Source: Rhizobiales bacterium Ga0077556 (lineage in GTDB: Bacteria; Pseudomonadota; Alphaproteobacteria; Rhizobiales; Phreatobacteraceae). Taken from it: DNA of 32,272 nucleotides. Positions 14,851 through 29,238 of the stretch are shown one piece after another. The translations under genes and the position numbers were made by a program. Numbering within the stretch: the stretch's first letter is position 1; every line of letters starts with the position of its first letter. The stretch is from NCBI GenBank assembly GCA_001464235.1, contig LNFH01000266.1, positions 1 to 32,272 on the forward strand, in the 5' to 3' direction. The notes under the pieces were generated by a model. The model saw nothing but the letters and a program-made list of their open reading frames with translations, was not told the DNA's origin and did not search any database.

Positions 14851-15945
14851 ATGCTGACCTACATCATCCGGCGCATTCTGCTCATGATCCCGACCATCCT
14901 CGGGATCATGCTGATCTCCTTCCTCGTGGTGCAGTTCGCGCCGGGCGGGCCGGTGGAGCGCGTCATCGCCCAGCTCACCGGCAACGACGTCTCGGCGACG
15001 CAGCGTGTCTCGGGCGGCGGGGCGGACGCCGCCCAGGCGACCGCGGCGGAGGCCGCCAACAGCACCTATCGCGGCGCCCAGGGGCTCGACCCGCAGTTCA
15101 TCGCCCAGCTCGAGAAGCAGTTCGGCTTCGACAAGCCGGCCCACGAGCGCTTCCTCCTGATGATCTGGAACTATGCCCGCTTCGATTTCGGCAAGAGCTA
15201 TTTCCGCGACGTCTCGGTGCTGCAGCTCATCGGCGAAAAGCTCCCCGTCTCCATCTCGCTCGGGCTCTGGCTGACGCTGCTGACCTATCTCGTCTCCATC
15301 CCGCTCGGCATCCGCAAGGCGATGAAGGACGGCTCGCGCTTCGACGTCTGGACCTCGGCGATCATCATCATCGGCTATGCGATCCCCGGCTTCCTCTTCG
15401 CCATCCTGCTGATCGTGCTCTTCGCCGGCGGCTCCTTCCTCGACTGGTTCCCGCTGCGCGGCCTCTGGTCGGACAACTGGGCGGAGCTGAGCCTCGGCCA
15501 GAAGATCCTCGACTATCTCTGGCACCTCGCCCTGCCGCTCACCGCCATGGCGCTCGGCGCCTTCGCCACCATGACGCTGCTGACCAAGAACTCGTTCCTC
15601 GACGAGATCCGCAAGCAGTACGTGATGACGGCCCGCGCCAAGGGCCTCGACGAGACCCAGGTGCTCTACGGCCACGTCTTCCGCAACGCCATGCTCATCG
15701 TCATCGCCGGCTTTCCCGGCGCCTTCGTCCATGCCTTCTTCACGGGGTCCCTGCTGATCGAGACGATCTTCTCCCTCGACGGCCTCGGCCTCCTCGGCTT
15801 CGAGAGCGTGCTGAACCGCGACTACCCCGTGGTCTTCGCGACGCTCTTCATCTTCTCGCTCGTCGGCCTGGTGGTGAACCTCATCTCGGACCTCATGTAC
15901 ACCTGGGTCGATCCGCGCATCGACTTCGAGGCGCGGGAGGTCTGA
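14851..15945 (+). CDS. yejB: Peptide/microcin-C-type ABC transporter permease YejB
   Basis: A 364-residue inner-membrane permease of the DppB/YejB group. The N-terminal helix starts [15 protein letters not shown]. Then comes the YejB-type periplasmic stretch (about 50-80, rich in Ala, Gly and Gln), followed by four or five membrane helices. The cytoplasmic EAA-like loop is in [22 protein letters not shown], where the ATPase docks. The YejABEF system takes up peptides and related compounds such as microcin C. yejE follows after 2 bases. No yejA binding-protein gene precedes it in the window. Confidence 0.95.
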
Positions 15946-15947
15946 CG

Positions 15948-17114
15948 ATGAGCACCGCCGTCCTGCGACAGGCCGACAGCGCGCCGGCCCGCCCCTTCCT
16001 CTCGCCGCTCAACCAGCGCCGCCTGGCCAATTTCCGCGCCAACCGCCGCGGGCTGTGGAGCCTCAGGCTCTTCCTGCTCCTGTTCGCGGTGACCCTCTTC
16101 GCCGAGCTCATCGCCAACGACCGGCCGCTCTTCATCCGGCTCGAGGGGCAGAACTTCTTCCCCGCCCTCGTCAGCTATTCGGAGAAGCAGCTCGGCGGCG
16201 AGTTCGAGACACCGGCGGACTACAAGGACCCGTTTCTGCTCGACCATTTCGACGCGAAGCAGGCCTTCGTCCTCTGGCCCCTGGTCCGGCACAACTACGC
16301 CTCCACCGTGAAGGACCCGGTGACGCCCTTCCCCTCGGCACCGACCTGGGCCCAGCGCGAGAGGCTTCCCGACTGCGCGGCGGCGCGGGCGAAGCCGCGG
16401 GGCGAACGGCCGCAGGGCGCGAGCTACTGCGAACTCGGCAACTGGAACTGGCTCGGCACCGACGACCAGGGCCGCGACGTGCTCGCCCGCGTCATCTACG
16501 GCTTCCGCATCTCCGTGCTCTTCGGCCTCGCCCTGACGATCATCTCGTCGCTGGTCGGCATCGCGGCAGGCGCCGTCCAGGGCTATTTCGGCGGCTGGAC
16601 GGATCTTCTGTTCCAGCGCTTCATCGAGATCTGGACCGCCATTCCCTCGCTCTATCTCCTGCTCATCATCTCCTCGGTGCTGGCCCCGAGCTTCTTCGTG
16701 CTCCTCGGCATCCTGCTGCTCTTCTCCTGGGTGACGCTGGTCGCCGTCGTGCGCGCCGAGTTCCTGCGGGCCCGCAACTTCGAATATGTCAACGCGGCAC
16801 GGGCGCTCGGCATCGCCTCCTCCACCATCATGGTCCGCCACCTCCTGCCCAACGCCATGGTGGCGACCATCACCTTCATGCCTTTCGTCCTCTCGGGCAG
16901 CGTCATGACCCTCACCGCCCTCGACTTCCTCGGCTTCGGCCTGCCCGTCGGCTCGCCCTCGCTCGGCGAGCTCCTGCAGCAGGGCAAGTCCAATCTCCAG
17001 GCGCCCTGGCTGGCACTCACCGGCTTCTGCACGCTCGCCGTCATGCTCTCGCTGCTCATCTTCGTCGGCGAGGCGGTGCGCGACGCCTTCGACCCGCGCA
17101 AGACCTTCGCGTGA
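15948..17114 (+). CDS. yejE: Peptide/microcin-C-type ABC transporter permease YejE
   Basis: A 388-residue permease of the DppC/YejE type, partner of YejB. After a cytoplasmic N-terminus (PLNQRRLANFRANRRG) and a first helix, a long periplasmic insert of about 130 residues follows, typical of YejE. Then come WLGTDDQGRDVLARVIYG and the C-terminal membrane core. The EAA loop is in NAARALGIASSTIMVRHLLPNAM. GGGAGG lies about 8 bases before its ATG. The gene is followed after 20 bases by an antitoxin-like gene rather than by yejF, which is unusual. Confidence 0.95.
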   Translation: MSTAVLRQADSAPARPFLSPLNQRRLANFRANRRGLWSLRLFLLLFAVTLFAELIANDRPLFIRLEGQNFFPALVSYSEKQLGGEFETPADYKDPFLLDHFDAKQAFVLWPLVRHNYASTVKDPVTPFPSAPTWAQRERLPDCAAARAKPRGERPQGASYCELGNWNWLGTDDQGRDVLARVIYGFRISVLFGLALTIISSLVGIAAGAVQGYFGGWTDLLFQRFIEIWTAIPSLYLLLIISSVLAPSFFVLLGILLLFSWVTLVAVVRAEFLRARNFEYVNAARALGIASSTIMVRHLLPNAMVATITFMPFVLSGSVMTLTALDFLGFGLPVGSPSLGELLQQGKSNLQAPWLALTGFCTLAVMLSLLIFVGEAVRDAFDPRKTFA

Positions 17115-26351: not shown

Positions 26352-27155
26352 TCAGCGCATCAGGTAGAGCCCGACGAGGCCCGCCGAGCCGACGACGATC
26401 CGCCACACCGCGAAGAGCGTGAAGCCGTGGCGGCTGACGTAGTCGAGCAGGAAGCGCACGACGAAGAGCCCGGAGATGAAGGCGGCGACGAAGCCGACGC
26501 CGATCGTCGTGACGTCGGAAAAGTCCAGCACCCGGTAGTTCTTGTAGAGATCGTAGGCGAAGGCTCCCGCCATGGTCGGCATGGCGAGGAAGAACGAGAA
26601 TTCGGCCGCGGCGCGTTTGGTCGTGCCCATGAGCAGCGCGCCGACGATGGTCGCACCCGAGCGCGAGACGCCGGGAAAGAGCGCGGCGCACTGGCACAGG
26701 CCGATCTTGAAGGCCAGCCAGGGCGAGAAGCGGAAGGCGTTGTCCTCCTTCGCCTCGAGCTTCAGCCGGTCGACGACCAGCAGCACGATGCCGCCGAGGA
26801 TGAGGGCGACGCAGACGAGGTCCGGCCGCTCGAACAGCGCCTTGATGCGGCTGTGCAGCACTGCGCCGAGCGCCGCGGCCGGAAGGAAGGCGACGATGAC
26901 GGAGACGACGAAGCGCCGCGCCCAGGCATCGGTCGGCAGGCACAGCACGACGCCGAGCAGGCGGGAGAAATAGACCAGCAGGATCGCGAGGATGGCGCCG
27001 AGCTGGATCAGCACCTCGAAGGTCTTGCCGGTCGACTGGAAGCCGAGGAAATGGCCGATCAGGATGAGATGTCCGGTGGAGGAGACCGGAATGAACTCGG
27101 TCGCCCCTTCCACCACGCCGAGGACCAGCGCCTTGGCCAGATTGACGATGTCCAT
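26352..27155 (-). CDS. uppP: Undecaprenyl-diphosphate phosphatase UppP (BacA)
   Basis: A 267-residue inner-membrane phosphatase that recycles undecaprenyl diphosphate, the lipid carrier for peptidoglycan and O-antigen. The first active-site motif is [16 protein letters not shown] (residues 14-29), containing E16, E20 and H29. The second is [11 protein letters not shown] in the middle third, with the catalytic arginine. Eight hydrophobic helices are seen. Length is normal for the family, and loss would raise bacitracin sensitivity. [13 protein letters not shown] at 27155 is the expected start. It is convergent with the NDUFA9-like gene. Confidence 0.96.
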
Positions 27156-27436
27156 GATGACCCCGGTCGCCTCGAAACGGCCGGAACGCCGGCCTCTCGT
27201 CGTGTGATAGGCGCGACTGTCTTCATGTCCGGTTAAGCATGCGCCTCCGTGAAAATGCTGAGGCCCGGAGCGGGAGGCGGCGTTCACGCTCCATCAACCA
27301 TGACGGATCGTGAAGGCTCTCCGCCGAATCCGCCGGTTGTTTCGCCGCCCTCATGGCGCTATGCACCCGCCTCCCGCATTGTCATCGAAAAACCATATCG
27401 GGGCCCTCGATTGCGGGCCCTTCAGGTCTGGAGCGC

Positions 27437-28129
27437 ATGGGACTGATCCTCCATCATCGCTACTTCTGCCCGCATTCCCGCTTCGTGCGCCTCGTGCTCA
27501 CCGAACGGGGTTTCGAGGCGGACCTGGTCGAGGAGAGGCCCTGGGAGCGGCGCACCGATTTCCTCAGGATCAATCCCGAAGGCACCACACCCGTGCTGGA
27601 ACTGGCCGACGGGGTCGCCATTCCCGGGCCCGACGGCGTCGCCGGCTGGCTCGACGACACCGACACGCTTCCCGCCGGCCGCCGCCTCATGCCGGAGAGC
27701 ATCGCCCACCGCATCGAGGTGCGCCGGCTGATGCGCTGGTTCCACGGCAAGTTCTTCGAGGAGGTCTCGGGGCCGCTGGTCGAGGAGAAGATCGACAAGC
27801 GCTTCATTCCGGCCGAATACGGCGGCGGCGCGCCCAACACGACGGCGCTGCGCGCGGCGCGCGCCAATATCCGCTATCATCTGGCCTATGTGGGCTGGCT
27901 CGCCGCGCGCAACGACTGGCTCGCCGGCCCCACCATGAGTTACGCCGATCTGGCGGCCGCCGCGCATCTCTCGGTGGTGGACTATCTGGGCGAGGTTCCG
28001 TGGAACGACGACGCGGCGGCGAGGGACTGGTACGCGCGGGTGAAGTCCCGCCCGTCGTTCCGCACGTTGCTGAACGACCGCGTGGTCGGCATGCAGCCGA
28101 GCGCGAGCTACGCCGATCTCGACTTCTGA
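27437..28129 (+). CDS. Glutathione S-transferase family protein
   Basis: A 230-residue cytosolic GST-fold protein. The N-terminal thioredoxin-like domain has [18 protein letters not shown] and the glutathione-binding region [11 protein letters not shown] then [10 protein letters not shown]. The C-terminal half is all-helical ([30 protein letters not shown]). It may conjugate glutathione or act as a disulfide reductase, and the substrate is unknown. The ATG at 27437 is chosen because the family N-terminus begins there, although the frame is open earlier. Its stop codon overlaps the likely CTG start of queG. Confidence 0.92.
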
Positions 28130-29238
28130 GCGATCCCGCCGCCCTGCGGCAGGCCATCGCGGCACAGGCCCGCGCCGAGGGCTTCGACGCCGTCGGCTTC
28201 ACCTGGCCTGACGCCATTGCCGAAGCCGGCCCGCGCCTGGCAGAGGCGGTTGCGGCCGGGCGCCACGGCTCCATGGACTGGATGGCGGAGACGCTGGAGC
28301 GCCGCTCCCATCCCAACGCCATGTGGCCGGACGGGCGCTCGCTGATCATGCTCGGCGTCAACTACGGGCCGGACGAGAACCCGCTCGACGGCCTGAAGGA
28401 CAAGGGCAGCGGCCTCATATCGGTCTATGCCCGCGGCGACGACTATCACGAGGTCATCAAGGCCCGCCTGAAGGCCTTCGCCCGCTGGCTGGTGGACGAG
28501 ACGGGCTGCGAGCTCAAGGTCTTCGTCGACACTGCGCCCCTCATGGAAAAGCCGCTGGCGGCCGCCGCCGGCCTCGGCTGGCAGGGCAAGCACACCAATC
28601 TCGTTTCCCGCGACTTCGGCTCGTGGCTCTTCCTCGGAGCGGTCATGACGACGCTGGAGATCGCCCCCGACGCGCCGGAGCGCGACCATTGCGGCTCCTG
28701 CACCGCCTGCCTGTCGGCCTGCCCCACCGACGCCTTTCCCCGCCCCTACGCCCTCGATGCGCGGCGCTGCATCAGCTACCTCACCATCGAGCACAAGGGC
28801 CCGATCCCGCGGGAGCTCCGCGCGGCCATGGGCAACCGCATCTATGGCTGCGACGACTGCCTCGCCGTCTGTCCGTGGAACAAGTTCGCCGAGACGGGCC
28901 GCAACATGAAGCTGGCGGCGCGCGAGCACCTGAAGCGGCCCGCCCTCGCCGACCTCGCCCGGCTCGACGACGCCGCTTTCCGCGCCTTGTTCACGAAGAG
29001 CCCGGTGAAGCGCATCGGCCGCGACCGCTTCGTGCGCAACGTGCTGGTCGCCATCGGCAACAGCGGCGATCCCGCCTTGGCGCCGGTTGCCGCGGATCTC
29101 CTCACCGATCCCGCGCCGGTCGTGCGCGGCGCGGCGGTCTGGGCGCTCGGGCGGCTCGACCCCGGCCGCCTTGCCCTCTCCCCTCCCGGCGGGGAAACCG
29201 ATCCGGACGTGCTCGCCGAATGGCCGCAGAGCCCGTAA
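28126..29238 (+). CDS. queG: Epoxyqueuosine reductase QueG
   Basis: A roughly 370-residue enzyme for the last step of queuosine tRNA modification, reducing epoxyqueuosine with cobalamin and two [4Fe-4S] clusters. Cluster cysteines are C189, C192, C195, C199 ([11 protein letters not shown]) and C242, C245, C249 (CDDCLAVC), with RCISYL adding another. D135 ([11 protein letters not shown]) is the likely catalytic acid. The C-terminus has HEAT-like repeats ([17 protein letters not shown]). The conserved N-terminus [20 protein letters not shown] starts at codon 2, but no ATG, GTG or TTG exists there. The CTG at 28126 overlapping the GST stop (CTGA) is the best start. ATG 28273 would lose 49 conserved residues. 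Confidence 0.93.

Follow-up and report, generated by a model that had tools for sequence, protein, structure and literature searches.

Where does translation of queG begin if its reading frame holds no standard start codon close to the conserved N-terminus of the product? The question is raised by a gene junction in the window, that is, the whole stretch of 32,272 nt analyzed here (Rhizobiales bacterium Ga0077556, assembly GCA_001464235.1, contig LNFH01000266.1, positions 1 to 32,272, forward strand). The initial annotation proposed a coupled start at a CTG that overlaps the stop codon of the upstream gene. On the comparisons described below, we judge the chances about even that queG starts instead at GTG 28000-28002, in a 130-base, out-of-phase overlap with the upstream fzlA-like gene. 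Ribosomes would then initiate at GTG 28000, inside the fzlA-like gene and in the other frame, and QueG would be made with a 42-residue N-terminal extension.

Genes, candidate starts and the terminal Phe

By family-model scores, the downstream gene is queG, predicted to encode epoxyqueuosine reductase: the part of the product encoded from 28126 scores 444 bits against TIGR00276 (cut-off, 200), and both the QueG N-terminal domain PF08331 and the double 4Fe-4S binding domain PF13484 are matched above their cut-offs. The upstream gene had been named a GST, and its product does carry GST_N and GST_C domains, but the best match is the FtsZ-binding protein FzlA (NF050814, 249 bits, residues 4 to 230); because this score falls short of the curated cut-off of 300, the gene is called fzlA-like here. 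Across the 12 genomes of the genus, the window's included, the fzlA products are 70 to 100% identical to that of the window. Divergent from the fzlA-like gene and upstream of it lies uppP (undecaprenyl-diphosphate phosphatase; 26352-27182, minus strand). Elsewhere in the window, at 14851-17111, two adjacent permease genes best match the microcin C ABC transporter protein YejB (552 bits against a cut-off of 445) and its partner (438.1 bits against 439, thus marginally below the cut-off). The features on which the start of queG turns are as follows.

27437-28129, plus strand: fzlA-like gene, C-terminus ...YADLDF-stop
27992-27995, plus strand: GAGG, Shine-Dalgarno-like, 4 bases before GTG 28000
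28000-28002, plus strand: in-frame GTG, the favored start; CCG TGG in the FzlA frame
28000-29238, plus strand: queG as read from GTG 28000, start placed by comparison; 412 aa, residue 43 being the CTG codon
28124-28126, plus strand: TTC, last sense codon of the fzlA-like gene (Phe); its third base is the first base of the CTG
28126-28128, plus strand: CTG, the start proposed initially and a rival start; shares CTGA with TGA 28127-28129
28273-28275, plus strand: ATG, first standard start downstream

The queG frame is open from 27304 to 29238. A frame scan bears out the initial report that it contains no ATG, GTG or TTG between 28021 and 28272, and the CTG does overlap the upstream stop codon as CTGA. 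The conclusion that queG is without a standard start holds for that span; GTG 28000, which lies in frame 21 bases above it, within the neighboring gene and 126 bases upstream of the CTG, had not been weighed. In one member of the genus (L004), the queG frame is closed six bases above the GTG, which is the sole standard start upstream of the CTG there. Alignment of the window's QueG to a solved QueG begins at residue 7 and leaves the N-terminus unsettled.

As had been noted for the window, no Shine-Dalgarno pairing precedes the CTG, and this holds throughout the genus, in 12/12 genomes (duplex energy, +0.3). Before the GTG, the duplex energy is -5.8 in nine of the genomes, a pairing strength attained by 10 to 25% of fzlA positions and so not exceptional, and -2.5 in the three that have no GAGG. 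RNA openness slightly favors the CTG: its surroundings are modestly more accessible than in synonymous shuffles (mean z of 1.25 over 12 related genomes), whereas the GTG does not stand out in this respect (mean z of 0.2); at the junction of the window itself, the RNA structure is no more stable than in shuffles (z of 0.30).

For comparison with relatives, 226 loci with queG were fetched and 16 that did not hold both genes were dropped, leaving 210, of which six are duplicates (among them L031, a Phreatobacter MAG whose stretch is the one also found in L003, a member of the set of 12, so that the genus is probably Phreatobacter). A terminal Phe is found in the upstream protein at all 210 loci, the last two residues being Asp-Phe, as in Caulobacter FzlA, at 209 and Glu-Phe at one; the last codon is TTC at 179 loci and TTT at 31. 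Because the terminal codon is TTC or TTT, a four-base overlap with TGA is limited to CTGA or TTGA, and the usual ATGA and GTGA overlaps are closed to the fzlA-queG pair as long as the protein ends in Phe. Where TGA stands in the right frame (98 loci), CTG occurs 84 times, TTG 14 times, and ATG and GTG not at all, so the comparison for which the initial annotation had called yields no relative with ATG at this place. An ATG there would replace the constant terminal Phe, and CTG is found in 12/12 genomes of the genus; decay of queG expression through an ATG-to-CTG change, the other possibility raised initially, is therefore unlikely, and a base-call error at the CTG is not credible. A synonymous change from TTC to TTT would turn the CTG into TTG, and TTT is found at 11 of the 92 loci where this would matter, compared with 18/112 elsewhere, that is, with no enrichment that would point to selection for TTG over CTG. 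The importance that we ascribe to the terminal Phe rests on its constancy among the sequences compared. If correct, it suggests a rule by which the last residue of a protein limits the start-stop overlaps open to its neighbor.

Unchanged stretches in the genus

The GTG at -126 (126 bases upstream of the CTG) is present in all 12 genomes of the genus, in two of them despite a Pro-to-Ser replacement in the FzlA frame; among the 67 other fourfold-degenerate columns of fzlA in these genomes, one is all G and three never hold C. Of 194 codon windows along the last 215 fzlA codons, only two regions have five informative codons unchanged in all 12 genomes, and one begins at the GTG while the other runs up to the CTG (fzlA codons are numbered back from the C-terminus).

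27998-28015, plus strand: stretch of fzlA without synonymous change, codons -43 to -38
28094-28126, plus strand: second unchanged stretch, codons -11 to -1
28108-28129, plus strand: invariant 22-base run ending in CTGA

The 22-base run is the longest in the 1,695-base fzlA-queG alignment of the 12 genomes, the next being 14 bases, and it is kept although TAC, GAT and CTC are minority codons in these genes. Synonymous change over the last 15 informative fzlA codons is 0.056, compared with 0.320 elsewhere, the lowest value of 162 windows. Conversely, codons -33 to -17 are roughly as variable as the body of the gene (0.295 versus 0.309; at fourfold sites, 0.271 versus 0.383), and because of that most of the N-terminal extension would appear to be under little constraint. 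In the Bradyrhizobium-like and mixed groups, the reduction of synonymous variation along the tail was not significant. Stop codons were also counted in the extension; their avoidance is not significant in the genus alone (0/118 versus 8/376; P = 0.21) and was discarded as evidence for an extension, the argument being largely circular since the loci had been chosen as open.

A predicted structure model of the long QueG (27 sequences; mean pLDDT, 79.6) contains a helix at residues 30 to 44, and residues 1 to 29 have a pLDDT below 50. Read in the queG frame, the second unchanged stretch falls in the predicted helix segment. On this model the long form would account for both stretches and a CTG start for one, with the caveat that an Arg/Glu/Leu-rich segment is easily predicted as a helix.

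The site 126 bases upstream in relatives

At loci where CTG is the only candidate near the junction, the queG frame is open up to a standard start upstream in 64/64 cases, compared with 71 of the 112 other loci; with third-position GC restricted to 0.8 to 0.9, the counts are 52/52 and 43/54. Among loci without a near start, the one locus of this frame that is closed (L185, from the order set) has a TAG stop and no CTG; by reading of its translation, it has a GTG at -99. CTG-only loci with the frame closed upstream were also sought by a tail pattern, which matched 84 of 385 genomes from the class. Both genes were present in 28 of the 70 stretches inspected, and in 7 queG was in this frame; in one of these queG lay 405 bases away (L247), and the others had a standard start between +3 and +27.

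The commonest upstream standard start at loci without a near one lies 126 bases up, where a Pro-Trp pair conserved in the upstream protein (CCN TGG) would create the NTG. Most of the comparisons at this site were chosen after the data had been seen, so the P values serve as guides, and codon positions outside the genus were counted from the C-terminus without a gap check. Outside the genus, 56 loci have queG in the same frame but lack a standard start close to the CTG; of the 55 with Pro at this place, 44 use CCA, which gives ATG, against a background of 2 to 5% CCA at the other Pro codons of the same genes. The codon test had used sets of 22 and 17 rows picked by junction type, the second of which included a locus of another family (L146); repeated on two whole coded families, with any junction, it finds CCA at this position in 16/18 and 16/19 loci, where CCA makes up 1.4% and 2.6% of other Pro codons. 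In the last 215 fzlA codons of these families, no other codon with a usage below 5% reaches 80% of the rows. CCA was absent from the other Pro-Trp pairs read, at 0/17 loci in fzlA and 0/8 in queG.

Counted per genus, the base at -126 is other than C in 24/26 genera of the class without a near start and in 33/58 others (P = 0.001), and it is A in 15/26 and 11/58, respectively (P = 0.0007); in these counts, coded and named genera may include one genus twice (Bradyrhizobium), and a genus may sit in two classes. Counts of coded genera only are 19/21 versus 19/31 for a base other than C (P = 0.027) and 13/21 versus 5/31 for A (P = 0.001). Neither association was significant in a tree-based pair test of 202 loci, which yielded only 13 supported pairs, few independent contrasts on which to rest the association, and left out L023 and L154, where no Trp follows the codon. 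On average, 2.0 pairs went the same way and 0.4 the other way for a base other than C, and 1.7 and 1.1 for A. Furthermore, CCA exceeds its background where queG adjoins in another frame (12/74 Pro codons versus 3.6%), and 11 adjacent loci with queG not joined carry it too; because of these loci, CCA may be retained for something besides a queG start, or by plain inheritance.

Several groups of relatives have other arrangements. At four Bradyrhizobium-type loci (L015, L043, L046 and L061), CCA is kept at codon -43 even though roughly 130 bases, containing several standard starts, separate the fzlA stop from the conserved part of queG. In the Bradyrhizobium-like group (L034-like loci), another in-frame start is kept 48 bases upstream of the CTG, as GAA TGG (ATG) in 20/22 loci and GAG TGG (GTG) in 2/22, and could replace the -126 codon as the start there. 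At many loci outside the lineage of the window (L251, L273, L282, L283 and others), an fzlA Tyr codon (TAT GNN) in the third frame supplies the queG frame with an ATG 16 bases before the overlap point.

Alternative starts and known systems

The main alternative, possible but less probable, is the one proposed initially, in which ribosomes that end fzlA at the TGA restart on the overlapping CTG 28126 by termination-reinitiation, with no Shine-Dalgarno sequence. Natural CTG starts are rare in bacteria. The genus-wide CTG, the 22-base run at CTGA, the low synonymous change just before it and the somewhat open junction all fit such a start, as does TTG at the same place in some relatives. The upstream stop is TGA in 50/59 genera with queG in this frame, compared with 36/58 others (P = 0.007), and in 23/27 genera of the class without a near start (P = 0.043); TGA as the commoner stop would suit a CTGA or TTGA start, but the excess fades when only coded genera are counted (P = 0.08 and 0.20). 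Against a CTG start stand the absent ribosome pairing, the lack of enrichment of TTG over CTG and the CCA evidence at -126; moreover, 4 of the 68 loci without a near start have CTA or TTA at the CTG position, and their upstream codons are ATG, ATG, ATG and GTG. GTG 28000 fits more of the comparative evidence, and we favor it over reinitiation at the CTG because ATG is strongly enriched at the -126 site, while TTT is not enriched at the junction. What speaks against the GTG is that the codon in the genus is GTG, not ATG, and the invariant run at CTGA, the CCA of the 11 unjoined loci and the nonsignificant tree test all count against certainty.

The two unchanged stretches of fzlA, of which the first begins at the GTG and the second ends at the CTG, would also be explained by dual initiation, with GTG 28000 giving a longer QueG and CTG 28126 a shorter one, but the second stretch may simply encode the predicted helix of the extension, and we regard the use of both starts as unlikely. 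Least probable is a start at ATG 28273, at another unusual codon or by frameshifting out of fzlA, or a decayed queG. Although ATG 28273 is the first standard start downstream, it would cut 49 residues from QueG, whereas the TIGR00276 match begins already at residue 11 of the part from 28126, and residues 2 and 3 after the CTG are Ser-Asp or Asn-Asp in 12/12 genomes of the genus. No slippery sequence was recognized by eye at the junction, and the QueG of the window is 75 to 90% identical to those of the other 11 genomes of the genus, which makes decay unlikely. Returning to the GTG start, the same situation may extend to several Hyphomicrobiales lineages, in which the terminal Phe would bar ATGA and GTGA, the 130-base overlap would be real and the start base would be selected through a rare Pro codon of fzlA; we hold this wider proposal more tentatively than the start in the window. 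Either outcome, a genus-wide CTG start or a 130-base co-directional overlap, would be uncommon, and the choice bears on the annotation of queG starts in several Hyphomicrobiales lineages. The function assigned to QueG or to the FzlA-like protein is unaffected.

In the library of open-licence papers searched, none was found on FzlA together with queG or on a "CTG start codon" with Alphaproteobacteria, which is no proof of absence. The upstream protein resembles FzlA of Caulobacter (PMC5760450), its best HMM match, in the common Asp-Phe C-terminus; it scores below the curated cut-off, and its FzlA role is predicted. In the accessible part of that paper, division in Caulobacter requires the penultimate Asp of FzlA, being severely impaired by D227K; F228 makes contact with the hydrophobic core, but the F228A single mutant is viable.

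Termination-reinitiation at four-base overlaps of the ATGA type, as described in the available portions of PMC6728339 and PMC10666635, likewise involves adjacent co-directional genes that share four bases. Here, however, the shared bases begin with C, or with T in some relatives, because of the terminal Phe of the upstream protein, which would have to change to give ATGA or GTGA; the available portion of PMC6728339 contains no occurrence of CTGA. The portion of PMC10666635 available argues that long overlaps in this phase are usually reduced to ATGA, a reduction that the terminal Phe would block in the fzlA-queG pair.

The prior against long co-directional overlaps is high: as far as the accessible text of a survey of 338 genomes goes, 715 co-directional overlaps longer than 60 bases were all judged to be errors and none real (PMC2478687). 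With a start at 28000, the fzlA-queG pair would overlap by 130 bases and so belong to the class surveyed, and the rule used there, which compares length with orthologues, would, as it reads in that text, call the GTG a wrong start, given the many relatives in which a standard start lies near the CTG. The overlap proposed here differs from those described in the same text in that no standard start lies between 28000 and 28273 and in that the start base is kept in relatives.
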